37,546 nt of DNA. It comes from an uncultured Sulfurovum sp. (GTDB taxonomy: Bacteria > Campylobacterota > Campylobacteria > Campylobacterales > Sulfurovaceae). Below the pieces are notes generated by a model. The model saw nothing but the letters and a program-made list of their open reading frames with translations, was not told the origin of the DNA and made no database searches. Made by a program: the position numbers and the translations under genes. Shown one piece after another: positions 16,814 through 37,546 of this stretch; positions within the stretch are counted from its first letter, which is position 1, and each line of letters begins with the position of its first letter. The stretch covers positions 55,945-93,490 of the forward strand of contig CACVAZ010000117.1 in the NCBI GenBank assembly GCA_902727995.1, written 5' to 3'.

Positions 16814-18121
16814 ATGACAAAAAATTTACTATTAAAAAAAATAATAATACTAACATTACTAATTCAAGGAACATTAATGGGTGCAAACCTAAGCCAATTA
16901 AAAATTAAGAACACAGACGTACCATTCATATTTGAAGAAGATAAAAACTTACCAATAGTTTCCATGCAATTAATTTTTAAAGATTCAGGTTCACTCTCAG
17001 ACACGCAAGATGGTTTAACACAAATCTCAGCTTCCCTACTGAATGAAGGAACTAAAAAAGAGGGTTCTGTTGGTTTTGCAACAAAGCTTGAAAACAGAGC
17101 CATTTCATTGAGTACTCATGCTGGAAATGAGACTTTTGTCATAGAAGTAGGATCGCTTAAAGAAGCGTTTCCTTACGCCATTGCACGTTTAAAAGAGTTA
17201 CTTAGCGATCCTAATTACAGCGAAGAAACATTGGGAAAAATTAAAACACAGACCATAGGGGCTTTAAAAAGAAAAGAGAGTGACTTTGACTATATCTCAA
17301 ACTTAGAACTAAAGAAGATGCTTTTTGAGGGTACTCCTTTGGCAAAACCTAGTGAAGGAACTGTTCAGAGTGTTGAAGGAATTGAGCTTGTAGACATTGA
17401 TAAACATCTTGGTAATCATTTAGGCGTGAACAATGCTATTGTAGTCATGGGTGGTGATATTTCAGAAAAAGAGGCTGCTGCATTTGCTACAGAGGTTTTG
17501 TCTTTGCTCTCCAAAGTAAATTCAAAGAAAATAGAAACAATGGAAGCTACAGCTAAAAGACAAGTTAAAGAAAAGATTCTTAATAGTGAACAAGCTTATG
17601 TTTATTTTGGATCACCGTTAAATGTTACTTATGATTCAAAAGAGCGTCACTTAGCACAAGTGGCATCATTTGTTTTGGGTAGTTCTGGCTTTGGTTCACG
17701 TATGATGGAAGAGATTAGGGTTAAAAAAGGTTTGGCATATTCAGCTTATAGTCGTTTTAATATTAATAAAACACACGCTTATTTTTCTGGTTATTTACAA
17801 ACCAAAATAGAAACAGGAGAAGAAGCTATTTCTTCAGTCAAAGAGGTTGTTCAAACTTTTTTAGACAAAGGTATTACAGCAGAAGAACTTAAGGCTTCAC
17901 AACAATTTTTGTTGGGTTCAGAACCTCTTAGAAATGAAACACTTTCTCAGCGTCTGGGTCAGGCTTTTCAAGAATACTACACTAACAAGCCATTGGGTTC
18001 GGCAAAAGAAAACTTGAAGAAAATAGAAGCTATTACTCTAGAAGAGATAAATGCTTTTATTAAGAAGCATAAAGAGATAGCTGAACTTTCATTTTCAGTG
18101 GTCACAGGGAAGAAGGGATAA
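16814..18121 (+). CDS. M16-family peptidase-like protein with degenerate zinc motif (probably non-catalytic subunit)
   Basis: Signal peptide; M16 fold signatures ('GSLSDTQDGLTQISASLLNEGT', 'SSGFGSRMMEEIRVKKGLAYSAYSRFN', 'GSEPLRNETLSQRL'), but GLTQISAS replaces the usual HxxEH. Confidence 0.88.
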   Translation: MTKNLLLKKIIILTLLIQGTLMGANLSQLKIKNTDVPFIFEEDKNLPIVSMQLIFKDSGSLSDTQDGLTQISASLLNEGTKKEGSVGFATKLENRAISLSTHAGNETFVIEVGSLKEAFPYAIARLKELLSDPNYSEETLGKIKTQTIGALKRKESDFDYISNLELKKMLFEGTPLAKPSEGTVQSVEGIELVDIDKHLGNHLGVNNAIVVMGGDISEKEAAAFATEVLSLLSKVNSKKIETMEATAKRQVKEKILNSEQAYVYFGSPLNVTYDSKERHLAQVASFVLGSSGFGSRMMEEIRVKKGLAYSAYSRFNINKTHAYFSGYLQTKIETGEEAISSVKEVVQTFLDKGITAEELKASQQFLLGSEPLRNETLSQRLGQAFQEYYTNKPLGSAKENLKKIEAITLEEINAFIKKHKEIAELSFSVVTGKKG

Positions 18122-20063
18122 ACTCTTTAAGTAATCCTGCTTTAGAAAAATAATATCCTTGGGAGTAATCAACTCCTAAGTTGGTAATTATATTATAAAT
18201 ATTTTCATTTTCTACATATTCAGCAATGGTTTTAATGTTTTGTTTTTTGGCAAAAAAGACAATGGTCTCTACTATGTCTTGTGAAAATGAATCCTGTTCA
18301 ATATGTCGAATTAAACTACCATCAATTTTGATATAATCAGGTTGATAGGCATGAATACGTGCAAAATTAGATTCTCCTGTACCAAAGTCATCAATGGCAA
18401 GTTTTACACCCCATTTTCTAATTTCTTGAATAAAATGCTTGGTAATTTCTTCATTGGTAATTTTTTCATCTTCTACGAATTCAACAATAATTCTATGTGC
18501 TTCCGTTTTATACTTTGTTAAAAGAAGAAAAAATTCGTCTCTTGTTCGATGGTCTTCTATGTCTATTGCTGAGAGATTTATGGAGATTTCTATGTCCATA
18601 TTAAAAAGTGCTCGAAATGAATTACGTAGTACGGTAGAGCTAATTTCATGATAGTATTTACCTTCTTTGGCTATTTCTAAAAAATGACGAGGGGAAATGA
18701 CGTTGTTATTGTTATCAATGAGTCGAACGAGTGATTCATACTTCATGATTTTTTTTGTTTTATTTTCGACAATGGGTTGGAAATAAGAGACAATATTGAA
18801 AGTGGCTATGGCTTCTTTTAGCATAATAAATCTATTTAATTTTTTGTTTGAAAGTTTTGTGGCTTCTTCTAAAAAATTTGTAGCAATAATAAATTCTTCT
18901 TTACTTGCTAAAATTTTACTGAGTCCCATTCTTGCATTGTCCAGTGCATTTTCTCCATAGGCTAAGGAACATACAATTGATAGGCTATAGTCTACAATAC
19001 CAATTTTGATTTCTTCATGGTTGATTTTCTGTTGAAAAGCTCGAAGTATTTCACTTGTCTTTTTTTTGTTTAGAAAGCTATGATCCTCTTTTATAAAAGC
19101 AAACTCCCCATTATTAAGAATATAGATATTGTCAAAGTTACATTTTGAGGGCATATATTTCAAAAGTTCTTTGGCAAAAATTTGTTGAAGTTTTTTTGTG
19201 ACTTGTTTTGTAAAAGAATGCTTTAGATAGGTAAACTCTTCAATTTTTACAAGAAAAAGAATACATTGTTTATGTTGTTTTAAATAGTCACTTAATTGTT
19301 TTGAATGATGAATAATATCGGTTACAGGAATGGAAAGGCTAATAAACTCTTCAACTTTTCCATTGATATTGACAATGGGTTGTATGGTTGTCTGTAGATA
19401 GTAAAGTTCACCTGATTTTGTTTTATGTTTTAGAAGACCTTTCCATATTTCTTTCTTATAGGCAATTTGATTCCAGATAGACGTAAAAAAATTAGGAGAT
19501 TCTTTTTGAAAGTTAAAGAGACTATGGTTCTGACCAATTAATTCTTCTTTTTGAAAACCAGATACTTTACAATAGGTTTCATTAACATAAGTGATTATAC
19601 CATTTCTATTTATTTTTGAAATGATTGCTGATGCATTGGTAATATTATGGTATTCCTCAATAAGATTTTGTTGTCGTTTTTTTTCTTTAATTTGCTCAAT
19701 TTTATTTTCTAAAATTTCTTTATTCACTGGTTTTTGTAAGTAGCCTTGTACACTATAATTAATACTTTCTTGTAATAAGACATTGTCAATATAAGCTGAA
19801 AGAATAATAATCGGAACTTCTTGATTAGTGGCTCTAATCATTTTAATAAAATCGCTACCATTTACATTTGGCATGGATAAATCTGTAATGATTAAGTCAA
19901 TTAAATTTTCTTTAAATTTCATAAATCCATCCAGACCATCTTCAGCAAGAATAAGTTTAGAACAGAGTTTTTTGAGTAGATGAGAAGTAATTGTTCTGGT
20001 AAGTTTATCATCTTCAATGTAGAGTATATTAAATAAGGGTTGATTTAATATTTTGGATCTAAT
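18102..20063 (-). CDS. Receiver-PAS-degenerate GGDEF-EAL response regulator, with probable non-canonical start
   Basis: The listed ORF starts at 19922 inside the receiver domain. In-frame upstream sequence (IIRSKILNQPLFNILYIEDDKLTRTITSHLLKKLCSKLILAEDGLDGF-MKFKENLIDLIITDLSMPNVNG) supplies the missing receiver half. PAS, GGDEF-like 'NNGEF', and EAL-like 'ESLVRLID...INLSAIDI...IDDFGTGESN...IKIDGSLI...IAEYVEN'. Confidence 0.85.
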   Translation of the reverse strand: MRSKILNQPLFNILYIEDDKLTRTITSHLLKKLCSKLILAEDGLDGFMKFKENLIDLIITDLSMPNVNGSDFIKMIRATNQEVPIIILSAYIDNVLLQESINYSVQGYLQKPVNKEILENKIEQIKEKKRQQNLIEEYHNITNASAIISKINRNGIITYVNETYCKVSGFQKEELIGQNHSLFNFQKESPNFFTSIWNQIAYKKEIWKGLLKHKTKSGELYYLQTTIQPIVNINGKVEEFISLSIPVTDIIHHSKQLSDYLKQHKQCILFLVKIEEFTYLKHSFTKQVTKKLQQIFAKELLKYMPSKCNFDNIYILNNGEFAFIKEDHSFLNKKKTSEILRAFQQKINHEEIKIGIVDYSLSIVCSLAYGENALDNARMGLSKILASKEEFIIATNFLEEATKLSNKKLNRFIMLKEAIATFNIVSYFQPIVENKTKKIMKYESLVRLIDNNNNVISPRHFLEIAKEGKYYHEISSTVLRNSFRALFNMDIEISINLSAIDIEDHRTRDEFFLLLTKYKTEAHRIIVEFVEDEKITNEEITKHFIQEIRKWGVKLAIDDFGTGESNFARIHAYQPDYIKIDGSLIRHIEQDSFSQDIVETIVFFAKKQNIKTIAEYVENENIYNIITNLGVDYSQGYYFSKAGLLKEFIPSSL

Positions 20064-22419: not shown

Positions 22420-22950
22420 TTAATAAAGACCAAATTTTCCATCAGCCCTTTTATACATAACTCTCATAAGACCATCATGGTCATTAAAAACGATAAATTG
22501 TCGCTTATTTTCAGCTTTTAATGCTTCAATGGCTTCTTCAAAATCGAGTGGTTTATGAAGTTCTAAATCCATAGGGACAAGTTCAATATCTTGGGCGTCA
22601 AGTTCAAGTACAGCTTCTGCTTCATCGCCTAAATCTTTAAAGGACATAACCTTGTGATCTTTAATTTTATCAGCATGTCTTCTTAATGCTTTTTGTGCTC
22701 TTGCAAAAGCATTGTCAGTGGCTGCATAAACATCTTGATCACTTTGCGTAATCACAATGGTATTTTTGTCTTTTAAGTTTAGGACAAGTTCAACTGACAC
22801 GTTTTTCTTTGTCTTACTGTCAGCTGTAATAATGGTATTCGATGAGATAATATTTAAGTTGTATTTGTCTAGACTATCAATACTTTCAGAGATATGTTCT
22901 CTAATAGAATCTGATAATTCATAATGTCTTCCCACTATATTTTTGCTCAT
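22420..22950 (-). CDS. hpf: Ribosome hibernation-promoting factor, long form (HPF/YfiA/RaiA family)
   Basis: 'GRHYELSDSIREHISESIDSLDKY...' N-terminal HPF domain plus C-terminal 'LHKPLDFEEAIEALKAENKRQFIVFNDHDGLMRVMYKRADGKFGLY'. Confidence 0.93.
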   Translation of the reverse strand: MSKNIVGRHYELSDSIREHISESIDSLDKYNLNIISSNTIITADSKTKKNVSVELVLNLKDKNTIVITQSDQDVYAATDNAFARAQKALRRHADKIKDHKVMSFKDLGDEAEAVLELDAQDIELVPMDLELHKPLDFEEAIEALKAENKRQFIVFNDHDGLMRVMYKRADGKFGLY

Positions 22951-23078: not shown

Positions 23079-23582
23079 TTAAAGCTTTTGGAGTGTTCTT
23101 CTGTGAAAAGTAACGTTTCGATTTTGAGGGTCATCAAAGTCTTTATAGCTTATGTAGGTGTCAATTATTAGAGAGATGGTATTGTAAAATCCTCCACTAT
23201 TATCACTCCATGTTGCATTTAGATTACTTATTCCCCCTGATGGATCAATGGAGGTGTTACATCCATTTAACAAGCTATTGTTTCCAATGTATTTAATATT
23301 GATTTCTACTCCATATCCAGCAGTAGTATCACCAAAATGGTCAGTAATTTTTTCGAGGCAACTATTAGTAGTATTCCTATCATAATAGAGAGCATAGAAA
23401 ATTGCTAATTCGGTGTAACTTCGTGCCAATAAAGTAGCTTGTTCTTTTTGGTATTGTGCTGTTGTGGCTTTAATGGTCTTTGCTGTAACACTCATAATCA
23501 TACTTGTAATAGAAGCCATAATAACAATCACAAAAATAGCTGTTATCATTGAAAAGGCTTTTTTATGCTTAGAATTTATCAT
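23079..23582 (-). CDS. Pseudopilin-like protein lacking Glu5 (MshP-like position)
   Basis: 'KKAFSMITAIFVIVIMASITSMIMSVTAKTIKAT' type IV pilin-like N-terminal helix with Thr at +5; ATGA overlap with the upstream pseudopilin gene. Confidence 0.82.
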   Translation of the reverse strand: MINSKHKKAFSMITAIFVIVIMASITSMIMSVTAKTIKATTAQYQKEQATLLARSYTELAIFYALYYDRNTTNSCLEKITDHFGDTTAGYGVEINIKYIGNNSLLNGCNTSIDPSGGISNLNATWSDNSGGFYNTISLIIDTYISYKDFDDPQNRNVTFHRRTLQKL

Positions 23583-24517
23583 CGTATAATCGCTTTCTCT
23601 TTGCAGGTACTAATATTGTATTTTTGACCAATGTTTTCAGAAGCACAGAGTTTGAACTGAATAACTCCACCATTTTCGGTAAATTTGAAGACAGAAATAT
23701 TGGTAGCCATGCGTTTTTTAATTCCACTGGTATAACGTTCGCCATTCCATGGTTGGTAGTTATAGTAGAGATAAAGATTATAAAGTCCATCACCTACAGG
23801 GTCTTCATCTATGGGAACTAAAGCATAAGCACTCCATGCTAGTTTATAGCGTTCACTAATGATGATAGGTTTATTGTCTACAAAGGTAAGGTTGGTGTCC
23901 TCATTGTTTGTCACCCGAAAGATACAAGCAGTTTTACTAGGATCAATAAGCCCCATACAAGAAGGGTTATATTCGGTATCCTCAATATAGTAGTTTGTTT
24001 TTTGGGAGAAAAGTATGGCAGCAGCGTGACTATTGTCACTCATTGTAACTTTTCCATTGGAGAGATTGTTCATAATATTCGCTGTCTTACTCAATTGTGA
24101 AGCAGGTGTTGTGACGCTAAAACGATTGGCTGTACTGTAATCGGTAACACCTGACCATCCTGGTGTCTCCGAGGCAGAAAAACTGTCATTGTCATATCCT
24201 ATCCATTCAATGGTTGTAAAGTTATTATCATATTTTGGAATGTTTTTAAGCATAATCCAATCCGTATCTTCGACAAAACCTGTTTTACTAGAATCTTTGG
24301 CAACACTTGTTCCTTGGATGCGATAGGTTAGACGGTTAACAATTTGATTGGAGACCAGTTCTGTTTTGGTTGTGACCTTATACATAGCACGTTGTGTAAT
24401 AAGATTTTCATAGACTTGAACAATAATGGAAGAGCTAATAGAGGCAACAACCCCTAAAATTACTAAGACAAAAACAACTTCAATTAGACTAAATGCAGGG
24501 TGGCTTTTTTTTATCAT
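23579..24517 (-). CDS. Type II/IV pseudopilin (prepilin-type N-terminus, MshO-like size)
   Basis: 'HPAFSLIEVVFVLVILGVVASISSSIIVQVYE' class III signal with Glu5; ATGA overlaps at both ends. Confidence 0.87.
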   Translation of the reverse strand: MIKKSHPAFSLIEVVFVLVILGVVASISSSIIVQVYENLITQRAMYKVTTKTELVSNQIVNRLTYRIQGTSVAKDSSKTGFVEDTDWIMLKNIPKYDNNFTTIEWIGYDNDSFSASETPGWSGVTDYSTANRFSVTTPASQLSKTANIMNNLSNGKVTMSDNSHAAAILFSQKTNYYIEDTEYNPSCMGLIDPSKTACIFRVTNNEDTNLTFVDNKPIIISERYKLAWSAYALVPIDEDPVGDGLYNLYLYYNYQPWNGERYTSGIKKRMATNISVFKFTENGGVIQFKLCASENIGQKYNISTCKEKAIIR

Positions 24518-25281
24518 AACTCTATTTCTCCTTGTGGTTCGAAGGTTCCAATATTACAAGAAAAGGCTTCTAGACTAATGTTCTTGTCAAGTTCTTTAAC
24601 GCCACTCTTGGAAGTTAGAGCTACTTTGATGTGTTTAATATTACTAGGAACACTACTTGTCAGTGCTAATTGTCCTCCAATGTTTGTCTGTACCGAAAGA
24701 ACAGAATTCACAGGAGCATCTTTTCGGTAGGAAACCTTGGTATGCATATTGAGTCCAATATCCACATAATCCCCAATGTCTGCTGTACTATCTTGATTGT
24801 TGTAAACAGTAATACCTAAATTACTATTGGCATAATCATCGACATCATCAAAGTGAGTGAAATCAGACTCATTCATGTCACTATTTGTGCTATTGAGGTC
24901 AGGACCAAAGCTAGGTGAGGGGGTATAAACTTGACTTCCTCCTACAAGTGAAATTCTTCCTGATACCCCTTTGAGTCCTGCAATGCTTCCAGCATTAAAA
25001 TTAAAAGGTGTTATCGTTTGCTGGGTGTCCAAAATGGGAGATGTTCCAATGGCAAGATTGGCATTGGCTTCATCCCAATTCATAGATAAAATGACTCCTG
25101 TCTGTGCAGCAGCAGCAGCAATGGCTTCTTGTTGGAGGGCAACATTACTACTACGAATTGATTGTTGAATTAGCATGGGACTTGAAAGTAATACAATTCC
25201 AATAATCACCAAAGCAAAGATAAGTTCTATCATTGCAATGGCAGGTTTAGATTTTTTTATACTGATGCTTTCTTTGCTCAT
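24514..25281 (-). CDS. Type II/IV pseudopilin (prepilin-type N-terminus)
   Basis: 'KPAIAMIELIFALVIIGIVLLSSPMLIQQSI' class III signal with Glu5. ATG at 25281 preferred over the TTG at 25293. Confidence 0.86.
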   Translation of the reverse strand: MSKESISIKKSKPAIAMIELIFALVIIGIVLLSSPMLIQQSIRSSNVALQQEAIAAAAAQTGVILSMNWDEANANLAIGTSPILDTQQTITPFNFNAGSIAGLKGVSGRISLVGGSQVYTPSPSFGPDLNSTNSDMNESDFTHFDDVDDYANSNLGITVYNNQDSTADIGDYVDIGLNMHTKVSYRKDAPVNSVLSVQTNIGGQLALTSSVPSNIKHIKVALTSKSGVKELDKNISLEAFSCNIGTFEPQGEIEL

Positions 25282-25286
25282 TTTCT

Positions 25287-28200
25287 TTACCAATCCATTT
25301 TACCATTAGCATCAATTTTTTTAGTAATTTCAGCCTGATTTCCCTCAACTCCAATTCCTGTTAAAGCTGAAATATCTTTAATTGCTAGTCTGAAGAAAGG
25401 AATACCTGCACTGTTGTCTGTGTTCTTGTGGTAGCGTAACCATGGTTGCGTATTTATCTCTATTTCAGTTTTAGTTAATGTTTCAGGAACACTTTTACTG
25501 TATTTGACATAGATATTATTAATTCTTCCATTTAAAAATGAAGGAATAATTGCTGGTTCGATTTGAAAATCACTATTACTACTGATTAAACTGCTAACAT
25601 TACTATCTAGCTTACTATTATGTTCACGATCAACGTACCAGCCTAAATCAGTTTTTTGTGTATTAAATCCAATGTTTTTAAGGTTCATATCATTGTCACA
25701 CCAAGATCTATTTTTAGAAATTTTACAATAAATCTCTACCATCAGTGGGGTATGAATTATTTTTTTAGTGGTTTCAGGATAAACTTCTTTATCGGAGCGA
25801 ATACGTGCGTAGAAAAAAGTCCTTGTTTGGTCAATGATACCTGAGTTCTTTTTGTGCAAAGCTTCTTGCTCTTTGCCTTCTCTCATTGACTTACTTGCCG
25901 TTGAATTGGCATCAAAGGCAACAAAATTAACTTGTATTGGATTCGTGGCTTCATTATAATGTTTTTCCATATTATAAGAGACTTTTAAACTTGTATTTCC
26001 CTCATTTTCATCTAAAAAATCATTGGCTTTAATGTGAATATTTTTAAAATAACTTACATCTCCATTAAGTCCATTAAGTTTGACAATCTGTTGAGGATAA
26101 ACAGGCGTTCCGTTGGAGGTTTTAATCTCTACTTTTCCTTGTTCATCACTATAGTTTTCTTTAAAAGTAGGTATAAAATTTAAAGAAAGTTCAACATCGT
26201 TAGCAAGACAGCTTTTGCTAAAGTTAGTTAGCTTTTGTCCATTCTTATCTTCAGCAATAATCGTACTGCTAATTTCTACAGCCATTTCATCGCTATCATT
26301 AAGATTATTGGTGTAGAGGTAAGCTCGTCCATCTTTGTTGGAGTTATTGAACGTCATGTTTGTTAGATTAAAGGCATAGGGTTGAAAATGTATTTTTAAA
26401 TCCTTATAACTATCTCCTTCATTCGATGCAATATTACACCCTACTTTTCCACTACTATTGGGAATATTACTAGCACTGTTTAAGACACAGCCTATATTAT
26501 TTAGGTTTTTGTTAATATCTGTCCAGTTAACATCTTCGATGTGCAGGGTATATTGTCCAACATTGGTATGTGTGAAAGTTGCATTGATTTTGGAATCTTT
26601 AAAATTGTATTCTTTAGGGTAGTTCTTTTCATCAGCACATTGCATTGTGCTATTTTTATTAAAAATAAGGGTGCTGTTGAGTTCTTTAGCATTATCTGTT
26701 TCATAATTTTCAATAAGGTTAGTCGTTCCATAGGGTGTTGCTTTGGTGAAAAGAGTGTAATTATACCCCGTGCTTAAATTAAGATAGTCATTCTCCAAGT
26801 AACTGCTATCACGATAAAGAGTATTGTTAAATTCATTACTCTCTTTGATGCTTACATGAAAATGAGCTGGACGTATGGCAAAACTATGTGAGTAATTACT
26901 CGACTCATTTGTGGTTAGTGCTTTTATGGCGTAATCATTTGAATTGGTATAGCTACCATAAACTAAAGTTCCATTTTCATCAACAAGATAAGAAACACGG
27001 TAGTTTGCCAATCGAGTTGCTCTATCAATCTTAATATCTTGCAGGACATCATAACGGTTACTACTGCTATCTCCTAGATGAACATATTTTGTATAGAGAA
27101 TATCATTCGTTAGCGTAGTATTTCTATCTAAGAGTTCCACTTTAAGAGTTATATTCTTAACCATTTGAGGATCATCATTTTTGTCATATCCTACTAAACT
27201 GTAGTCAAAAGCACGACCTGATATTTGAGTGTAAAGATTTTCTTTAAGCGACTGTGGATTGTTTTCAACGTCCTTGCTATTAGTCCGTTCTACAGCAAAA
27301 CGAAGTGTATCATCCCCTTCAATAGTTGCCATCATCACTGTATCATCAAGTAAAAGATTAAATGCATTTGAAAGCATCACATAGAATGTTTCACTCCCCT
27401 CTTTTAGTGTATCTCCTTTGACATAAATGGTAATGGTTTGTTCTTGTGTTCCTGCTGGAAAAACAACTGTGCCACTACTTGGAATATAATCACTATCACT
27501 CATTGCTGTTCCATTACTTGTGGCATATTGAACTGATCTATTTGTTAATCCAACCTCACTTAGTCGTAAAGTAAAGGTAAAGGCTTTTGTCCCACTGTCT
27601 CCCTCGGTATGGCTAATGTCCTTAAGTAAAATAGTAGGAAAATTATGAAGGGTTTTCATGCTATAATCTTCGACTTCTCCATCAAGTGCTGAACCTGTTG
27701 CATTTAACTCTTGTTGTGAACTGTATCTGAAACGTGCATAAATATTTTCACCATTAAAATTAAGCTTAGCCACATCAGAAGCGTTCACTTGAAGGTAAAT
27801 GCTTCCACTAGAACCATCAACATCTTTAGCAATCTGTTCTGAGACGGTAAATTGACCATCTCTATTCCAATCAATCCATGCATTAAGATAGCCAGAACCT
27901 TTTGTTTCTATGTTGATGTTGTTCAAAGAATTGAGCGAAGTAATTTGATAGCCTTGCAGTGACACAGTTCCTATTTTTACGCCATCATCTTGTTCATCTA
28001 AATTAGCATTTACTGATGGTTTTCCATTATTTTCATTGCTTACTCCATTCCCTAAGTAAATTGTAGGGTTACCATAGCTAGGCAAGGAGTGTCTAGCACC
28101 ATTGCTTTCTAGTTTGGTTGGATAATTTTCAGGTAAATCTCCAAAATCAAATTTAAACTCTGCATCCGTACACATTGCTCCATCATTAAGACTTACTTTG

Positions 28201-31200
28201 GTACTTTCTGCAAACCATACAGCTTCTGCTGAATTGGCTACATCGATTCGATAAATATTACCACTCTTGTTGTCATAGATATAATAAAATCCACTAGCAT
28301 CAAAAAAACTTGCACCAAAACCTCTATTGCCTACTAAAGAGGTGTCTTGTTTTGATAGTTCTTGACCTGTTAATGGATCTATTTTATAGAGGTACTTCGT
28401 ACCATTTCCATTATTGACAGCATAAAGTTTATTGTCTTTAGGGTTAAATCCCCAATCAGCAGTAGTTAAATTAAAACTTAATTCAAATTCTCTAATTTTT
28501 GTAAGATAAGTTAATGATTTTGGATCAAGATCTATAACCACAACCCTTTGACCATTACCATTAACCTTTAGATAAAGATGACCATTATTATCTACATCAC
28601 CAACATAGGAATCAAATCCATCAAGTCCTGATATAAGAAAGTCTTCAGTTATCCAGTCTCCTTGCTTATCCATACCAATTCGTGAAATCGTACCATTTTG
28701 TGTTGTATGGTTATATCCCCAAAAATAACCATCTTTTTTGTTAAACCCTAAGGCATTGATATTATCATCAGATACATTATTTTTAATCGAGGTCATTTCT
28801 CCATTTGCAAGATTTAGAGCATTGATATCAGTTGGTTTATTTTGAAACATAAAGGCTGTTTGTAAACAACCAATGGGATTGCTCTCTTCATTGTCATCAT
28901 TTATAATGGTAGCTAGAGCAGTCACGGATTCAGGAGTAAAAATAGCATTGCTAATATTGGTTAATTCGAGCGTAAAAGTTTCATTGTCTTCAACTTGAGT
29001 ATCTCCCTTGATTAGCACTGAAATACTTGTACCATTAGCATCTTTAGGAATGATAATACTCTCTCCTTGGGCGATTGAATCTTCTTGATAGTCTTCTCCT
29101 AGCATGGCTGTATTATCACTCAATTTGTAGCTAAAGCTAATCTCTTTGGGGGCTGGTCTATTGAGTACAATGTTAAAGAACATCTGTGTTGTACTTGTAT
29201 CTCCTTCTACTATAGAAGGATTCGATGCAATACTGATTGAAGCATTTTCAATGGCTATTTGTGTACCATTACAAGAAAGCCCTTCGATGTCTCCGTCTGC
29301 ATTGGTAATGGCAGATGGAACCAATACACCTGTTTGAAGATTTACTTTATAAAGTCTTTTTCCATCAAGGTCATCTCGTCCTTCATCTTCTACATAAAGA
29401 TTACCATCACTAGCAAAAGCCAAACCTTCAGCATCAGCTAAATTTTGTAATCGAGTTACAAAAGTTGTCAATCCTGTTTTTAGGTCAATACTATAAAGTG
29501 GTGGTTTGAGATTAGAATAATCATAGTCATCAATAGCATAACCTAAACCTGTAAGAGGATCAATTGCCAAACTTGATAAGTCAACATTGGTATTTTTAGG
29601 ATAACCATCAAGTACCGTCCAATTGTCAGGGTCAAATGCATATAGTTTAGAGTCATATTCACCACTAATAATGTAGAGTATTTCTTTGTTTAAAACAGGG
29701 TCAAAGTAAAATTCAGCCCCATCCACAGCTCCTGAAATAATGTTGTTTTTAACTTTTTCAGTAGCACCACTGTTTACATTTATTGTGTATAAATCACTTG
29801 GTCCAGAATCATCACTATTTCCTTGAAAAGCATAAAAAGTATGATTACTCGCTCTATAAGCTGAACCCTCACCATTAAACTGTTTGTCGATATTAACAAC
29901 AGAGGCAAAAGGCAAAGGATCTCCATTGGGAATCATAGAGACTTTATAGAGTTTTTTATTATTATCAGTTAGTGCATAACAAGTGGCTGATGAAGTTTCG
30001 CTTGATGGGTCTGAACAGTCATTAAACTCTACATGAAGGTAGGGTGCTTTTGATGAAGAACCATCATAAGAATCAGCAACACGTTTTCCATTTCCTGAGA
30101 TAATAAATGCCATGGCATTACCATTATTCCATCCGTCTTTATTGACTATTTCTTGAACAATACTCTTTAAATCACTTGTTCTCTGTTCAGAATCTTGTTT
30201 GTTTTTATTCATCCATGCTTCAGGTGACCAAGATACAAAGGCTGTTGTTTTATTTCTATTGCTTATATTATAAGCCGTAGAAATAAATTGAGATGCATGG
30301 TTCGTACTTTCTCCATAAATGGTTAAGTTGGTAGAGTCTGAATCTTTTTCTTCTGAGGTAAATTGGATGTAGGCATTGGTAATACTCGCTCCTTTTGGAA
30401 TAGAGAGATTTTGAAAACGAAGTCCTATTATTTGTTGGTGATCCTCTTGTGTCATCTCTAGGTCACTGCTTCCAATGTTCATGTTCCCATTACTTACTCG
30501 CTCTTCAGCATCGTCATCATCATCAGATATTTTTACTTCAATTGATGAGGGATTTTCGGTACATGCCAGTTCACTAATTATTTCATCATCATTCATAATA
30601 GTGGCTATGGCAGTTACTGATTCAGGAGTAAAAGTAGCATTGTCTATGTTGCTTAATTTTAGGGTAAAAGTTTCATTGTCTTCAACTTTAGTATCTCCTT
30701 TTATTAGTACAGAAATACTGGTAGAGTCAGCATTTTTAGGAATGCTAATGGTTTGCCCTTGTGCGATTGAACCTTCTTGATAGTCTTCCCCAAATATCGC
30801 AGAATTATTACTTAAGGTGTACTCGAAGGTAATTTTTTTTGGAGCTGGTTTATTTAGTATTATATTAAATAACATTTCTTTTAGACCACTGTCTCCTTCT
30901 GTTATAGAAGGATTTGATTCAATGCTAAGGGAAGGGTTGTCAATAAGTTCAATGGATGTGGTGATTTTAAAGTTGGATTCAACAGTTTGTCTTTCTGCCC
31001 AAAACATATCAAAATTATAGGTATTTCCAATGACTAAATCTAAGTTGTCTAAGTTAACAGACTTTTCTTCTTTACCATGAATTCCTCCAATATCAACAGC
31101 CAATTTATTATTAATAAACACCCAAACATCATCATCCCCAGAAAAGGTAAATATTTCGCCACCTTGATAGGTAAATTGAGAGTGTATTTCATAGGTCATA

Positions 31201-31643
31201 TGATAATTATGTTCTTGTCCCTCATTGCCAAAAAGCTGATTATCTAAGGGAAAAAAACCTTCATAGTTCACGTTTGAAGTTTCGCCCATAGGATTAGTCT
31301 CACTGTCATAAACATACACATTGTTTTGTTTTTCTAAGGTAATGGTATAAGGCATTGATTGATTAACTCCTGAAACATCATTGTACCATTGATTAAAAGT
31401 ATTGTGAGTTGTTGAGTTTTTTGTAGAATTATTAAAAACAGGATTTCTATTTTCATCAAGTTGATCTTGTACCATTCCGTAGTCTAATCCAGCAAAATTC
31501 CAATTATTAAATTCTGCATAAAGTTCAAAATCGGGGTGAGAACTTTTAAAGTCTCTTAGAGTACCCGATAAGGTAATGCTTTGAGAATAAAGGGTCAAAG
31601 TACTAAAAGAAAGTAAAAAAATTAATTTAAAAATATTTTTCAA
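25287..31643 (-). CDS. Giant secreted protein (2118 aa): fibro-slime/PA14-like head, two similar Calx-beta repeats, propeller-like segments, GEVED, further Calx-beta, MshQ/DUF6701-like C-terminal region
   Basis: Signal peptide MKNIFKLIFLLSFSTLTLYSQS; 'FTFSGDDDVWVFINNKLAVDIGGIHG' (fibro-slime); Calx-beta 'EGDSG...GEDYQEGS...GDTKVEDNETFTLKLSN...IMNDDE'; GEVED 'GYLNAWIDWNRDGQF...ARFRYS...DGEVEDYSM'; 'HSFAIRPAHFHV'; C-terminus '...ALTGIGVEGN...NGKMDW'. Confidence 0.92.
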   Translation of the reverse strand: MKNIFKLIFLLSFSTLTLYSQSITLSGTLRDFKSSHPDFELYAEFNNWNFAGLDYGMVQDQLDENRNPVFNNSTKNSTTHNTFNQWYNDVSGVNQSMPYTITLEKQNNVYVYDSETNPMGETSNVNYEGFFPLDNQLFGNEGQEHNYHMTYEIHSQFTYQGGEIFTFSGDDDVWVFINNKLAVDIGGIHGKEEKSVNLDNLDLVIGNTYNFDMFWAERQTVESNFKITTSIELIDNPSLSIESNPSITEGDSGLKEMLFNIILNKPAPKKITFEYTLSNNSAIFGEDYQEGSIAQGQTISIPKNADSTSISVLIKGDTKVEDNETFTLKLSNIDNATFTPESVTAIATIMNDDEIISELACTENPSSIEVKISDDDDDAEERVSNGNMNIGSSDLEMTQEDHQQIIGLRFQNLSIPKGASITNAYIQFTSEEKDSDSTNLTIYGESTNHASQFISTAYNISNRNKTTAFVSWSPEAWMNKNKQDSEQRTSDLKSIVQEIVNKDGWNNGNAMAFIISGNGKRVADSYDGSSSKAPYLHVEFNDCSDPSSETSSATCYALTDNNKKLYKVSMIPNGDPLPFASVVNIDKQFNGEGSAYRASNHTFYAFQGNSDDSGPSDLYTINVNSGATEKVKNNIISGAVDGAEFYFDPVLNKEILYIISGEYDSKLYAFDPDNWTVLDGYPKNTNVDLSSLAIDPLTGLGYAIDDYDYSNLKPPLYSIDLKTGLTTFVTRLQNLADAEGLAFASDGNLYVEDEGRDDLDGKRLYKVNLQTGVLVPSAITNADGDIEGLSCNGTQIAIENASISIASNPSIVEGDTSTTQMFFNIVLNRPAPKEISFSYKLSDNTAMLGEDYQEDSIAQGESIIIPKDANGTSISVLIKGDTQVEDNETFTLELTNISNAIFTPESVTALATIINDDNEESNPIGCLQTAFMFQNKPTDINALNLANGEMTSIKNNVSDDNINALGFNKKDGYFWGYNHTTQNGTISRIGMDKQGDWITEDFLISGLDGFDSYVGDVDNNGHLYLKVNGNGQRVVVIDLDPKSLTYLTKIREFELSFNLTTADWGFNPKDNKLYAVNNGNGTKYLYKIDPLTGQELSKQDTSLVGNRGFGASFFDASGFYYIYDNKSGNIYRIDVANSAEAVWFAESTKVSLNDGAMCTDAEFKFDFGDLPENYPTKLESNGARHSLPSYGNPTIYLGNGVSNENNGKPSVNANLDEQDDGVKIGTVSLQGYQITSLNSLNNINIETKGSGYLNAWIDWNRDGQFTVSEQIAKDVDGSSGSIYLQVNASDVAKLNFNGENIYARFRYSSQQELNATGSALDGEVEDYSMKTLHNFPTILLKDISHTEGDSGTKAFTFTLRLSEVGLTNRSVQYATSNGTAMSDSDYIPSSGTVVFPAGTQEQTITIYVKGDTLKEGSETFYVMLSNAFNLLLDDTVMMATIEGDDTLRFAVERTNSKDVENNPQSLKENLYTQISGRAFDYSLVGYDKNDDPQMVKNITLKVELLDRNTTLTNDILYTKYVHLGDSSSNRYDVLQDIKIDRATRLANYRVSYLVDENGTLVYGSYTNSNDYAIKALTTNESSNYSHSFAIRPAHFHVSIKESNEFNNTLYRDSSYLENDYLNLSTGYNYTLFTKATPYGTTNLIENYETDNAKELNSTLIFNKNSTMQCADEKNYPKEYNFKDSKINATFTHTNVGQYTLHIEDVNWTDINKNLNNIGCVLNSASNIPNSSGKVGCNIASNEGDSYKDLKIHFQPYAFNLTNMTFNNSNKDGRAYLYTNNLNDSDEMAVEISSTIIAEDKNGQKLTNFSKSCLANDVELSLNFIPTFKENYSDEQGKVEIKTSNGTPVYPQQIVKLNGLNGDVSYFKNIHIKANDFLDENEGNTSLKVSYNMEKHYNEATNPIQVNFVAFDANSTASKSMREGKEQEALHKKNSGIIDQTRTFFYARIRSDKEVYPETTKKIIHTPLMVEIYCKISKNRSWCDNDMNLKNIGFNTQKTDLGWYVDREHNSKLDSNVSSLISSNSDFQIEPAIIPSFLNGRINNIYVKYSKSVPETLTKTEIEINTQPWLRYHKNTDNSAGIPFFRLAIKDISALTGIGVEGNQAEITKKIDANGKMDW
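28886..29253 (-). repeat. Second copy of a highly similar Calx-beta module in the 2118-aa protein
   Basis: 'ASISIASNPSIVEGDTS...RPAPKEISFSYKLSDNTAMLGEDYQEDSIAQGESIIIPKDANGTSISVLIKGDTQVEDNETFTLELTNISNAIFTPESVTALATIINDD' closely matches the copy at about 30580-30940. Confidence 0.85.
30580..30940 (-). repeat. First copy of the highly similar Calx-beta module in the 2118-aa protein
   Basis: 'PSLSIESNPSITEGDSG...KPAPKKITFEYTLSNNSAIFGEDYQEGSIAQGQTISIPKNADSTSISVLIKGDTKVEDNETFTLKLSNIDNATFTPESVTAIATIMNDD'. Confidence 0.85.
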
Positions 31644-31710
31644 AATTAAATCCTTTTTATAATTTTATTTTAATAAAAGTATAATAGGCTTTTACTTCTT
31701 TTTAGGTTAA

Positions 31711-31735
31711 AATTTATATATTAAATATATAAATT
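31711..31735. repeat. Perfect 25-nt AT-only palindrome between two giant genes
   Basis: AATTTATATATT-A-AATATATAAATT, 12-bp perfect arms; 29 nt downstream of the 1816-aa gene stop and upstream of the 2118-aa gene. Confidence 0.8.
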
Positions 31736-31755
31736 AATAATAATTTAAGTTTATT

Positions 31756-31781
31756 AATCCATTTTACCAATCCATTTTACC
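31756..31781 (-). repeat. Perfect tandem duplication of 13 bp across the stop codon of the 1816-aa giant gene
   Basis: aatccattttacc x2 (minus strand GGTAAAATGGATT GGTAAAATGGATT): the sequence encoding the terminal GKMDW is repeated beyond the TAA. Confidence 0.9.
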
Positions 31782-34700
31782 TACGGAATGCACTCCTGCT
31801 TTGGACTTGATGATGTTACCTGACTCTCCAATTCCTGTCCATTGGGAATCATCTTGATTGGTACAATTTACTACATAGTAAGGAGGCATCCCTTGTGGAT
31901 GATAATCGAGTACAGGATCGGTTCCAATGCTTATTTTAGTACTAGGAATAGTACAATTGTTAAAACTAGTAAGAACTACACCATTGCGTCCTGAGCTAAA
32001 TTTAACAGGAATGGGGGAAATGTTGACAACATTTGGATTGGGAGTGAGGGAAGTGACTTCTCCATCACTACTTTGGTCATGGTTGACCGAAAGATACCAC
32101 CCTTGTTGTTTTCTTGGACTACTTTCTATGACCGTATTATTTAAAATGCCTGTCTCTTGACAATAGGCTTTTGGGGCATTACAAAAGATATCGACATTCA
32201 AAGGGGTGCGAACTACTTTAGACTTTTTGAAGTAAATACGTGGATAATTTAATAGGTCAGAAGCCACTTGAGTAAAATAAAAATTACGTTCAATGCCATT
32301 GAAGTTTTTCTCTCCTTTAGGAACATGCTGCGTACTCTTATTGGTTTCACTGTAGGCTGTATCGGATTTCACATGAATGTTGTCAAACTTAATGTTGATG
32401 GGATTAATGGGCTGGGTTAAATGTTTTTGAATGTTGTAGCGTAAATCTAACTCGACCGAACCATTTTTTCCATCAAGAAATTTATCTGCTGTGATGTTTA
32501 ATTCATCAGTTACGTAGGCAAGAGTGTTGTAGTTTGAAAGATTATAGTCTTCATTGTTAAAACGTTCCATACGTATGATATTGACCTCTTCACGGCTATG
32601 GTTCCCTTCTATTGGAGCTGTTAAAATGGTTTTAGGAGCAGTAATGAGACCATCTTCACTTTTAAGACTTGCCAAAGGGGTGAGTAAAAGATCTTTTGCC
32701 ATACACGAATGGCTAAAGTTACTGGTACTAACATTATTTTTTCCTTGTGCCACAATCTCTCCTTTGAACTGCATTCCTGTCTGGTAATAGTTTTGGTTTA
32801 AAGGACTCATGTAAATAAAATCAGGATGGCTATTGTTGGGTAAATTATGTTGTGCTAAATCGACTTTAAATTGAAAAGGATAAAACGTTAAATCAATTCC
32901 ATGTTGCTTGACAGCAATGTTACAGCCTGAACGCTGGTTTGAATGGAGTGTTGCAGAAGTACTTTTTCCTAATTCACAATCACCTTTTACTCGGTCTACT
33001 TCTGCCCAGTCTTCATCCTCTGTTAAGGTTACATGGTATTTCCCAACATTATCATGCATAAAAGTTGAGCTATTAAATACACCATTAGCAAAAGTAATGT
33101 TTTGATTAATTCCTGTGGTATTAGCACAATGTGTTAATCCTGTATTGTTAAAATCAAAAGTTTCTGAAAAACTTTTATTGTAATCAAGAGCAGAATCATA
33201 GCTAAGATATTTGGTTGCAACCATAGAAAGATTATAATCATAACCTGCTGCTACTCTTAGATTGTGATTGGGATATTCGCTGGAAATTTTTTCACTGTTT
33301 CCATCAGAAATTTTGATAAAAAAACGTTCAGGACGAATGGAAAAATCATCTTTAGCATCATTGTAGGCTATGTTTGTAAAAGCATTAAAACAGGTTTTAG
33401 GTGCTGTGTTACAGTCTGCTTGAAGAATTCCTCCTTGCTCATCGAGCCCATAAGTAATGCGAAAGCGTACGTCTTTATGAGCAGGGAGCATTGCTAAATC
33501 GTCTATGGCTACATTGACCCCTGATAGGGCATTAATACGGCTAAGAGCAGGATTGTTTTTAATGTGATAATAGTTACGGTAAAGTACTTTTTGGTTTACG
33601 TCATCAAGTAATTCTACTTTGATGGTCACGTTGTCTAAAGCTTTTTCTTGGGTCATGTTTTCATCATAAAAAAGTACAGAATAATCAAAATCACGACCAA
33701 CTATTTGTGTGTACCAAGCATTTCTAGCCTCTGAGTTAATAATAGGATTGAGTCCTGAGTTGGTTCTTTCTATGTTAAAAGTACCGAGTAGTGGTTTAAA
33801 ACTTGAACCAAAGTAAATCGCATAATCTTCAACTTCTCCATCACTTGCTGATTCTGTAGCATTTAATGTGGCTGTGGATGAATATCTAAAACGCAGATAA
33901 GTTTTTGTATCTTCGATTAGTCCATCGTTAACATTAACACTAAGTGTATGTGTTCCTGTTGTTAATGCTAGTCCTGTAAAGATTTTTTCACCAATATCAT
34001 CAAAGTCTCCATCTATGTTGTAATCAATCCAAGCATTTAAATAACCAGCTTTTGAGACTTTTATTTTTAAGTCATGACTTGTATTTAAATCTAAAAATGC
34101 TCCATTTAAATTTGATCCATTTGCTAAATTTACCCCATCGTCATCATCTGTACCATTTAGATCATCTCCTGTTGCGTCTACATTGTGGTAGCTATGAATA
34201 TCATGGTCAACTTCGGTTCCCATGAAAATACCATTGTCAATATTATGTCTAGGTGTTCCATAACTTATGGGTGCATCACCACGGTCTGTAAATACCAGTG
34301 AAGCTGTGAGACAATTTGTTCCATCATTAAAGTCTGCTTCTTGGGAAGCAGATAAAAAAAACTTTTCGCCTGTGTTCAGATTAAATTCAAAGAATCCATT
34401 TCCCAAACTGTCATTGGCAAAAAATCGTCCATTAGCATCTGAAAAAGTTGAATCGAATTGGTAGCCTGTATGAGGAGAACCAAGGCTAGAGACAATACCT
34501 GTTGCTACATCAATTTTAACCAATGCTCCTCCATCAATAATCCCATGTAGGTATTTACCATCAGGTGTAAATGAGAAGTCCAATAACGAAATGGCTTTGT
34601 CTAAGGTAATTTCACTAACGCTTTTATCGGATAAATTGATTTTGAAAATTTTCTCATAGTCTTGTCCTGGTCCAGAGATATAATATTCATTGGCATAAAT

Positions 34701-37214
34701 AGCCCCTGCAAAAAGTTGCTTTGTCGTTAAAATGCTTGGTAGTTCAGAAATGTTTCCCAAACTAATCACTTTTCCTGTTTTACTAATTTTTACCAACTCT
34801 TTTTTATAGAGTCCAAAAATATAGTTACTGATATTAGTATCCCCCGAATCGGCATAAGCTAAGGCATTATACATTTTATTGCTACCCTCTGAATCAAGTA
34901 CGATAAAATCAAAAGGGTTCTTGGTGGTGTCAACTTTATGAAGCCACATTTTATTGGTAGAAGTAGGATTATCTCTATTAACAGAACTCGATATATACAT
35001 GCTATCATCACAAATAAAAGGAGCATCTTCACCCTCACAACCACAATCTCTTAGTGTTCCATCAATATTTTTATTAGAAATGGTATTTTGATATAAATTT
35101 GTTACTTGATTATCACCCATTTGACCTTGAAAAATATAAAATTCATCATAATAACCTGATAGCGTAGACATGGTTATGTCATCTGTAATATTCTCTATGC
35201 CTCCTGTGTAAGGATTACTTCCTTTTAGTTCACCATTGATGTAGAGTTTCATACCTTGACCTCCAAAAGTAAAGGTGACATGAACCCATTGGGTGTCACT
35301 GTCTCCTCCATCACTATTAGTAAAAAAGACTTCATTGGTATGAATGGTATTGCCATTAAGATGCACATCAATGCTTCCCTTATGCAAGTCACCTCCTACA
35401 CGAATGGCTTCAATGTCAAACAAGCCTTTTTTGAAAAGCCATGAATCACTTGCCCAAATGTTATGATGGTCGTAAAGTAACATGGACACCGTACCTTCTG
35501 TTAAGGCATAGTCTGCATGATGAGGTATTTTTAAGCCTGAGGATTGATAGCCGTTAAGCGAAGTACACATGTAATCTTTATCATCATCGGTCATAATTCC
35601 AGTAGCCGTACCAAGTGCATGGTTTACTGTGGGAGAATTGTCTATTTTCCACTCTTCATTACCACAGTCATCAAATCTGAACTCTCCGATGTTTTTTATA
35701 GAAAGAGGCGCTAAGTCATCATTTAAAATAATGATTGGAACCGTATTGCTACCATCAATACTTATGTTGACTTCATTATGAATTTTAAAATAGAAAGATT
35801 CATGGGATTCTAGTTGAGTATCTCCCTTAATACTAATTGGAATGCTAAGCGTAGTTTCTCCTCCTGTAAAAATATGTTTATCTAAGAGAGTTTCATAATC
35901 ATTATTGCTAGATTCAGCTGAACCGTCAAAGGTATAAAATTCAATAGAGGAGTTCGGTAATGCAGGTTTATCAAGGCTTAAAGTGATGTTCAATTCACGC
36001 TGTGTGCTGTTACCCTCATAAATTTCATAGGAAGGCATGTCAATTTTGATGCTAGGAAGTGAACCATCATCATTTATAATGCTTATTTGTATTTGCTCAT
36101 TTAGTCCACCCCAATTTAGTTTATAAAGATTCCAAAAACCAATATGAAAAACTTCATCATTTTCCATTTTTGTGTCCCCATTAATAGGAACTTTTATCGT
36201 AAAATATGTTTCTCCACCTGTGAAGTTGACATCATTTTGTGTATAAATATAGTCATTATCCCCCCATTGGTTTTCTGCTGTTTCATTCCATGTCCCATAA
36301 GTAAAAGAAGAATCTACTAACGCTGGGTTATCTAAAATAATATTGGCTTCTAAAAATGTTTGACTACTATTTCCTTCTACAATAGAAAGTGCACTATGTT
36401 CAAAAGAGATAACAGGAAAATCACCATCATCATCCCAAATTCGTAGCTCACTTTCACTATTATCAATATCAGGACTTCCTGAAATTACCAATTTTAACGC
36501 TTCATTATGTTCTATTTCTAGGTCTCCTATAATAGGAATTTGAATAATTTTTTCTTCATCTCCTGTTATAAACAGAACATTTCCTGCAATAGGTGTATAG
36601 TCAACATTAGGAGTAGCTGTATAATATGAAGCCTCTGCCGTTTCATAATCAATAGAAATATTTGGTTCACCCACAGGCAATGGTTTATCTAAAAATATTC
36701 TACAAGATATATTATTATTATCACCAATATTTCCTTCATTAGTACTCTCACAACTAACATTGACAGTAACAGACTTATCCACATCATCGTCAATAATTGT
36801 TCCCAAAGCTTTTCCTGTACCTGTCACAGAATAGCCACTCGTTGGGGTAGTAATTTGCAGATAAAAGTACTCATTGCTTTCATGAATGGCATCATCTAAA
36901 ATATCAATGGTTACAGTTTTAGAAGTAGAAGGGGACAGAGAAGTAAACCAAATAGCTGTGAATACATTACTACTTTTAGCTGTGTAGTCCGTACCTGAGA
37001 TAGCTGAACCATTTATGGTTTGATAATCAATGTGAACGGGAGAAAAGATTGAAAGGGGAAGTTCATCAACCGTAACGGTGAAGCTTATGGTTCCTTCACT
37101 CTCATTAACAGAAGCATTGGAAACCTGTACTCCTACGTTGACACCATCAGCAAAAAGCAAAGCAGAGAAGAATAAAGAGAATGAAAAAAAAACTTTTTTA
37201 TAAAAAGAAGCCAT
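31764..37214 (-). CDS. Giant secreted protein (1816 aa): four N-terminal Calx-beta-like repeats, LamG-like domain, propeller-like segment, GEVED, MshQ/DUF6701-like C-terminal region
   Basis: Signal peptide MASFYKKVFFSFSLFFSALLFADG; Calx-beta repeats ending in IIDDD/IWDDDG/IINDDG/ILNDD; LamG-like 'QWVHVTFTFGGQGMKLYINGELKGSNPYTGG'; GEVED 'GYLNAWIDYNIDGDF...LRFRYS...SDGEVEDYAI'; 'DFSIRPERFFIKI'; C-terminus 'WTGIGESGNIIKSKAGVHSVGKMDW'. Confidence 0.92.
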   Translation of the reverse strand: MASFYKKVFFSFSLFFSALLFADGVNVGVQVSNASVNESEGTISFTVTVDELPLSIFSPVHIDYQTINGSAISGTDYTAKSSNVFTAIWFTSLSPSTSKTVTIDILDDAIHESNEYFYLQITTPTSGYSVTGTGKALGTIIDDDVDKSVTVNVSCESTNEGNIGDNNNISCRIFLDKPLPVGEPNISIDYETAEASYYTATPNVDYTPIAGNVLFITGDEEKIIQIPIIGDLEIEHNEALKLVISGSPDIDNSESELRIWDDDGDFPVISFEHSALSIVEGNSSQTFLEANIILDNPALVDSSFTYGTWNETAENQWGDNDYIYTQNDVNFTGGETYFTIKVPINGDTKMENDEVFHIGFWNLYKLNWGGLNEQIQISIINDDGSLPSIKIDMPSYEIYEGNSTQRELNITLSLDKPALPNSSIEFYTFDGSAESSNNDYETLLDKHIFTGGETTLSIPISIKGDTQLESHESFYFKIHNEVNISIDGSNTVPIIILNDDLAPLSIKNIGEFRFDDCGNEEWKIDNSPTVNHALGTATGIMTDDDKDYMCTSLNGYQSSGLKIPHHADYALTEGTVSMLLYDHHNIWASDSWLFKKGLFDIEAIRVGGDLHKGSIDVHLNGNTIHTNEVFFTNSDGGDSDTQWVHVTFTFGGQGMKLYINGELKGSNPYTGGIENITDDITMSTLSGYYDEFYIFQGQMGDNQVTNLYQNTISNKNIDGTLRDCGCEGEDAPFICDDSMYISSSVNRDNPTSTNKMWLHKVDTTKNPFDFIVLDSEGSNKMYNALAYADSGDTNISNYIFGLYKKELVKISKTGKVISLGNISELPSILTTKQLFAGAIYANEYYISGPGQDYEKIFKINLSDKSVSEITLDKAISLLDFSFTPDGKYLHGIIDGGALVKIDVATGIVSSLGSPHTGYQFDSTFSDANGRFFANDSLGNGFFEFNLNTGEKFFLSASQEADFNDGTNCLTASLVFTDRGDAPISYGTPRHNIDNGIFMGTEVDHDIHSYHNVDATGDDLNGTDDDDGVNLANGSNLNGAFLDLNTSHDLKIKVSKAGYLNAWIDYNIDGDFDDIGEKIFTGLALTTGTHTLSVNVNDGLIEDTKTYLRFRYSSTATLNATESASDGEVEDYAIYFGSSFKPLLGTFNIERTNSGLNPIINSEARNAWYTQIVGRDFDYSVLFYDENMTQEKALDNVTIKVELLDDVNQKVLYRNYYHIKNNPALSRINALSGVNVAIDDLAMLPAHKDVRFRITYGLDEQGGILQADCNTAPKTCFNAFTNIAYNDAKDDFSIRPERFFIKISDGNSEKISSEYPNHNLRVAAGYDYNLSMVATKYLSYDSALDYNKSFSETFDFNNTGLTHCANTTGINQNITFANGVFNSSTFMHDNVGKYHVTLTEDEDWAEVDRVKGDCELGKSTSATLHSNQRSGCNIAVKQHGIDLTFYPFQFKVDLAQHNLPNNSHPDFIYMSPLNQNYYQTGMQFKGEIVAQGKNNVSTSNFSHSCMAKDLLLTPLASLKSEDGLITAPKTILTAPIEGNHSREEVNIIRMERFNNEDYNLSNYNTLAYVTDELNITADKFLDGKNGSVELDLRYNIQKHLTQPINPINIKFDNIHVKSDTAYSETNKSTQHVPKGEKNFNGIERNFYFTQVASDLLNYPRIYFKKSKVVRTPLNVDIFCNAPKAYCQETGILNNTVIESSPRKQQGWYLSVNHDQSSDGEVTSLTPNPNVVNISPIPVKFSSGRNGVVLTSFNNCTIPSTKISIGTDPVLDYHPQGMPPYYVVNCTNQDDSQWTGIGESGNIIKSKAGVHSVGKMDW

Positions 37215-37280
37215 GGCAATTCCTTTAAGAAATATTATATGACTGGATTATAGTATATTTATAATTTCTTAAAGATTAAT

Positions 37281-37301
37281 TTATATTTTATATTTTATAT
37301 T
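37281..37301. repeat. Heptanucleotide tandem repeat (TTATATT)x3 upstream of the 1816-aa giant gene
   Basis: Three exact consecutive copies of TTATATT, 67-87 nt upstream of the start codon. Confidence 0.8.
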
Positions 37302-37336
37302 TATTTAATTATACTTTTCTCTTATAAAAAATCATT

Positions 37337-37546
37337 TTACCACTCAAGCTTACCACTTGATTTTGTATTTGATTTCATTTTAAGAATGTTTCCTGTGTTT
37401 CCTACTCCTGTCCAAGTAGAACTGTCTTTGATAGTACCTGAGATTATGTAGTGGGGTACTCCATTCGGTACTCCAGCTTTGGAGATTCCTGAATAGTAAC
37501 GTAGTTGAGGGTCAGTATAAATATCAACTCTAGCATCTAAATCATT
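37337..37546 (-). CDS. C-terminus of a third giant/paralogous surface protein (truncated by window end)
   Basis: Open frame on the minus strand from the window edge: NDLDARVDIYTDPQLRYYSGISKAGVPNGVPHYIISGTIKDSSTWTGVGNTGNILKMKSNTKSSGKLEW*, homologous to the last ~60 aa of the two neighbouring giants. Not in the supplied ORF list. Confidence 0.85.
   Translation of the reverse strand, partial: NDLDARVDIYTDPQLRYYSGISKAGVPNGVPHYIISGTIKDSSTWTGVGNTGNILKMKSNTKSSGKLEW

Follow-up and report, generated by a model that had tools for sequence, protein, structure and literature searches.

The minus strand of a 37,546-nt stretch of DNA from an uncultured Sulfurovum sp. (hereafter the window) carries in its last 14.5 kb the end of one giant gene, two complete giant genes (encoding 1816 and 2118 aa) and three overlapping genes for prepilin-type proteins. 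On the strength of sequence comparisons, we consider it likely that this locus is the tip module, detached from the machine genes, of a type IV pilus of the MSHA (mannose-sensitive haemagglutinin) type, in which exchangeable giant adhesins share one minor-pilin base. The locus supplies a candidate tip module for the MSH systems of Epsilonproteobacteria, and makes it possible to test clearly how a single pilus might change its adhesin. The three prepilin genes (MP1, MP2 and MP3, together the trio) and their neighbors are arranged as follows.

37337..37546, minus strand: C-terminal 69 codons of a third giant, ending GKLEW; identified by profile and cut by the contig end
31764..37214, minus strand: giant 1, 1816 aa; signal peptide, four Calx-beta domains, Laminin_G_3, DUF6923, GEVED and a C-terminal region ending GKMDW
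25287..31643, minus strand: giant 2, 2118 aa; signal peptide, fibro-slime/PA14, three Calx-beta domains, DUF6923, GEVED and a C-terminal region of ~680 aa ending GKMDW
25290..27344, minus strand: conserved C-terminal region of giant 2, modeled (pLDDT 88.9) as an all-beta, Ig-like stalk, the terminal tail at low confidence
24514..25293, minus strand: MP1, putative minor pilin with Glu5 in the GspI/PilV/MshD position; likely start TTG 25293, alternative start ATG 25281
23579..24517, minus strand: MP2, 312 aa, putative minor pilin with Glu5 in the GspJ/PilW/MshO position; N_methyl match, most conserved of the trio
23079..23582, minus strand: MP3, 167 aa, putative minor pilin without Glu5 in the GspK/PilX/MshP position; conserved C-terminal tail HRRTLQKL
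22420..22950, minus strand: ribosome-hibernation factor (S30AE, PF02482), the syntenic boundary gene beside MP3, outside the pilus module

These open reading frames agree with the preliminary description of this DNA, in which at least three minus-strand giants are followed by three prepilin-type genes. The third giant is partial and unreadable further upstream, because the end of the window is exactly the end of the contig. A Sec-type signal peptide can be read from the sequence at the N-terminus of both complete giants. The tight packing described before holds for the 4-nt overlaps between MP1 and MP2 and between MP2 and MP3, but the 5-nt gap between the last giant and an MP1 start at ATG 25281 is probably a 7-nt overlap with MP1 beginning at TTG 25293, because MP1 starts 7 nt inside the giant in 31 relatives, its start codon overlapping the TGG-TAA end of the giant gene. 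In a promoter and terminator scan, terminator-like sites were no more frequent than in shuffled sequences. Near the module, the window also encodes a GGDEF-EAL protein (5457-7337, plus strand) and a response regulator-PAS-EAL protein (18102-19922, minus strand), which are possibly relevant to it, as MshE-type ATPases carry an MshEN domain.

The order giant-MP1-MP2-MP3 is conserved far beyond chance. Relatives of MP2 were taken from named genomes of Sulfurovum, Sulfurovaceae, Hydrogenimonas, Nitratifractor and Sulfurospirillum, giving 76 MP1-MP2-MP3 sets (window included), of which 64 have a giant immediately upstream, seven lie at or near a contig edge and five have none adjacent. A giant thus sits directly upstream of the trio in 64 of 69 decidable loci, mostly with short overlaps, and the same order recurs in more distant Campylobacterota families. 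It follows that giants upstream of the pilins, earlier held to be unusual, are the standard arrangement in this phylum, differing from the D-O-P-Q order quoted for classic MSHA. In nearly all relatives, the trio is found in synteny with a giant and not beside unrelated genes. The flanks are conserved as well, with lon, a gene for a BamD-like lipoprotein, fliW and/or proC on the giant side and the hibernation factor on the MP3 side. In relative G113 (L281:71-6409, plus strand), a 2112-aa protein with the C-terminal end SGSRMDW is encoded on the far side of the hibernation factor and appears to be a giant that has moved. In a Campylobacteraceae genome (L280:8885-9906, G189) MP2 is interrupted and the giant, MP1 and MP3 are kept, as in a decaying trio.

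The giants combine variable N-terminal regions with a shared C-terminus. Pfam finds Calx-beta, DUF6923 and GEVED in both complete giants, PA14/fibro-slime in the 2118-aa protein and Laminin_G_3 in the 1816-aa protein; these are adhesin-type domains, and no DNA-binding domain was seen. The C-terminal region of ~680 aa is common to the giants and occurs in 193 of the 397 Campylobacterota genomes sampled. The 76 giants whose C-terminus can be read all end in [KR]xxW, whereas only five of 827 other open reading frames end in W. This end also occurs in giants that do not overlap MP1 (in the window, those at 31764 and 37337), so the overlap with the MP1 start codon cannot account for the terminal Trp. 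In an AlphaFold2 model (pLDDT 88.9, pTM 0.81), the C-terminal region forms an all-beta, Ig-like stalk whose last 20 residues are poorly modeled (51-59), yet the last of them is Trp in 58 of 58 sequences. Such a tail, conserved and yet flexible, would be expected of a docking strand. A PDB sequence search with the C-terminus gave chance matches only, and a fold search returned Ig-like chains (PrgB, FdeC, invasin) with low TM-scores. A tree of the C-terminal regions separates the giants into two old groups, one of upstream giants and one of giants adjacent to MP1; genome G021 has a recent duplicate.

The proposed likeness of the giants to MshQ, a putative adhesin (PMC7096442), and its family DUF6701 is supported at the level of the family. 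DUF6701 was matched in 30 of the 397 Campylobacterota genomes, in 26 of them above the Pfam cut-off (best 5e-24), and among the matches listed, most coincide with the coordinates of the giant profile. The C-terminus of one relative's giant scores 56 bits against a cut-off of 27, and a same-genus counterpart of the 1816-aa giant matches below the cut-off (E 2.7e-5). The giants in the window, in contrast, are too diverged for a direct Pfam match to DUF6701, and none was found anywhere in their genome. At the level of sequence similarity, the giant family is DUF6701-related, and the window copies belong to it through a chain of similarity.

Beside a giant in genome G009 (C59, around 63906-65396; L054), a 5282-aa open frame matches parts of the N-terminal domains of P0004 and is possibly an even larger surface protein. 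The genome of the window itself (G000:C69, 6953-8806) encodes another open reading frame, of 1087 aa, with three tandem copies of the domain at residues 366-547 of the 2118-aa giant.

The three small proteins show features of minor pilins. The Pfam N_methyl model matches MP2 above its cut-off and MP1 weakly, and the window copy of MP3 has no match to it. Position 5 of the mature protein is Glu in all MP1 and MP2 and never in MP3 (76-80 loci), and MP3 resembles GspK and PilX in this respect. In a profile search of the window proteins, the curated MshD, MshO and MshP models did not match the trio, whose assignment to these families rests on gene order, the Glu5 pattern and length. The AlphaFold2 model of MP3 (pLDDT 83.7) shows a long N-terminal helix and four strands; a Foldseek search with it gave no convincing pilin match, the best pilin-type matches being XcpGHIJK and XcpV-XcpW (E 0.33-0.35). 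Within MP2 (23579-24517), the motif EWIGYD...PGWSGF is highly conserved throughout the phylum, which is striking for the body of a minor pilin. Further prepilins accompany the module in some relatives. Many Sulfurovum-type loci have a fourth prepilin of ~220 aa after MP3 (L101, L104, L107, L130, L132-L134, L136-L138, L140, L145, L149, L152 and L153), and in others (L105, L108-L110, L112 and L113) the opposite strand carries a similar gene upstream of the giant. In relative G006 (L070:396-1947, plus strand), three prepilins resembling major pilins (GFTMIELIFVIVIIGILASVAI) are encoded in convergent orientation to an unlinked giant; these are candidates for an MshA-type major pilin, and such candidates were seen only there.

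At the level of gene content, several giants do share one trio, as the preliminary description supposed. Of 16 genomes from the same genus, 13 contain a single MP2, in one the MP2 is split over two contigs and in two none was found, while these genomes carry mostly two or three giants. That giants may act in trans on a shared trio is best supported by two draft genomes (G015 and G017), in which the trio has no linked giant and the giants are on other contigs. What is unusual in this probable MSHA-type tip variant is that several giants share one trio.

The trio may also have a counterpart in natural transformation. CtsT of Campylobacter jejuni has been linked experimentally to transformation, and we take lon and fliW of this species to lie at cj1073c-cj1075. 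PMC8308473 places the 100-aa ctsT at cj1077, next to proC at cj1076, and by these locus numbers the trio site is syntenic with the ctsT site. Some Campylobacteraceae (L274-L276) have the trio at the same site without a giant, and two further loci (L283, L284) read lon-bamD-fliW-proC followed by prepilin genes of 97/98 aa and 208-242 aa and a gene of 144 aa, with the pilins shortened and the giant missing. Since sequence matches are weak at this site, it is the synteny that leads us to infer that ctsT and its neighbors are a remnant of the trio, and in Campylobacter the three-gene site seems to survive without a giant as a DNA-uptake locus. This would suggest where the minor pilins used by Campylobacter in natural transformation came from, and possible intermediates can be seen in living genomes, from a trio with its giant through a trio lacking one and a shortened trio to loss of the locus.

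Conversely, the trio and giants could themselves form a competence pseudopilus as in the C. jejuni Cts system, with the giants as DNA- or matrix-binding heads for uptake. Besides the shared site beside proC (L283, L284) and the same pilin order, this reading draws on the ctsRDPXEF operon, whose gene order and protein types (PMC10893306) are compatible with mshK-L-M-N-E-G. We nevertheless regard it as unlikely, as uptake is documented where the giant seems to have been lost and the pilins reduced, and the giants bear adhesin-type domains. The Cts system resembles the one described here in site and pilin order, judged by synteny, and in a compatible order of machine genes, and differs in its shortened pilins, its lack of a giant at the site and its function in DNA uptake.

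The machine that would assemble such a tip had been proposed to be either a type IV pilus or a type II secretion system (T2SS), and the mshL- and mshE-like genes looked for upstream of the giants were found in the same genome on another contig. Its MshL secretin (G000:C57) scores 264.2 bits against the curated cut-off of 250.2, and MshL exceeded this cut-off in 11 of 12 tested genomes. The same contig carries a GspE/MshE-type ATPase gene, recognized by its T2SSE domain in a truncated copy. Here the order is J-K-L-M-N-E, with the mshI and mshE sides cut by contig ends; the complete order I-J-K-L-M-N-E-G, without pilin genes inside, is found in G055 (L208) and relatives, mshI, mshJ and mshK being named by position, without a curated family match. 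The MshE homolog of G055 contains an MshEN domain (PF05157, 57.4 bits). Across the sample, MshL was detected in 188 of 193 giant-bearing genomes, with five lacking it, versus 130 of 204 others (Fisher p 3e-19, in a phylogeny-naive test). Direct linkage is seen in four other genomes: L270, L271 and L272 contain a single cluster of diverged giant-MP1-MP2-MP3-pilin-mshI..G, and L238 a similar giant-trio-machine cluster that is cut off at mshE. The giants of these clusters end in ..GVK[VL][YF]R instead of W, and we therefore treat them as a diverged, paralogous set.

Of the two machines proposed, the MSHA-type one fits. In the T2SS alternative, MP1-3 would be GspI, GspJ and GspK and the giants secreted substrates; the GspI-J-K order with Glu5, Glu5 and a last pilin without Glu5 is indeed alike, and the genome has a GspD-like secretin. 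However, its T2SS locus (L218; L215-L217 in relatives) encodes a separate set of GspK-, G-, H- and I-like pseudopilins, which rules out the trio as the I/J/K set of this T2SS, and in the four genomes above the giants co-locate with MSHA-type machine genes instead. We thus consider this alternative very improbable. The least credible reading, with hardly any weight in our view, is that the giants work as free-standing adhesins, at the surface or released, and merely share an operon with the pilins: some giants lie away from the trio and each has a signal peptide, but the invariant Trp at the C-terminus of every giant and the 7-nt coupling to MP1 point to a common docking partner.

For the tip module of an MSHA-type pilus, we propose that MP1, MP2 and MP3 would prime and cap the filament, with MP3, which lacks Glu5, at the very tip. 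Each giant would be a Sec-exported adhesin of the MshQ/DUF6701 type, in which variable N-terminal binding domains (Calx-beta, PA14/fibro-slime, LamG) are followed by DUF6923/GEVED segments and the conserved Ig-like C-terminal stalk. The [KR]xxW-COOH tail may then dock on the minor-pilin base, by analogy with PilY1, whose C-terminus adds a beta-strand to PilX in models (PMC11046646). Because one trio co-exists with two to three giants, sometimes on other contigs, the giants may be alternative tips for the same base, and a cell could therefore vary the adhesin displayed on a single kind of pilus. A bolder version, to which we give somewhat less than an even chance, holds that [KR]xxW is a tail code by which any one of several giants, whether its gene lies in cis or in trans, docks on one trio, and that the DNA-uptake pseudopilus of C. 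jejuni (CtsT and its neighbors with ctsRDPXEF) is what this pilus became when its giant adhesin was lost.

MSH systems were already known from Epsilonproteobacteria through a survey of machine genes (Denise 2019), in which MSH was encoded almost exclusively in a single locus (PMC6668835). In the open-access literature, we found no paper on an MSH tip module in Campylobacterota; what is new here is a probable MSHA-type tip variant with several giants per trio. The usual single locus is not matched in the window genome, where tip module and machine genes are on different contigs, and a single cluster was seen only in L270-L272 and L238. With the MSHA of Vibrio and Shewanella (mshD-O-P-Q), the system shares MSHA-type machine genes, three putative minor pilins in a matching order and a large protein from a DUF6701-related family, but differs in that the giant precedes the trio, the module is separate from the machine genes and several giants are present per trio. 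It also resembles the tip complex of PilY1 with the minor pilins PilV/PilW/PilX/FimU (PMC7541494), in which a large tip protein with a variable N-terminus and a conserved C-terminus is encoded together with minor pilins. Unlike PilY1, neither giant has a Pfam match to the beta-propeller (PF05567) at E<=1. Furthermore, Myxococcus, which has multiple alternative PilY1 tip sets (PMC7541494, PMC13190605), uses one pilin set per PilY1, in contrast to the one trio for several giants found here.
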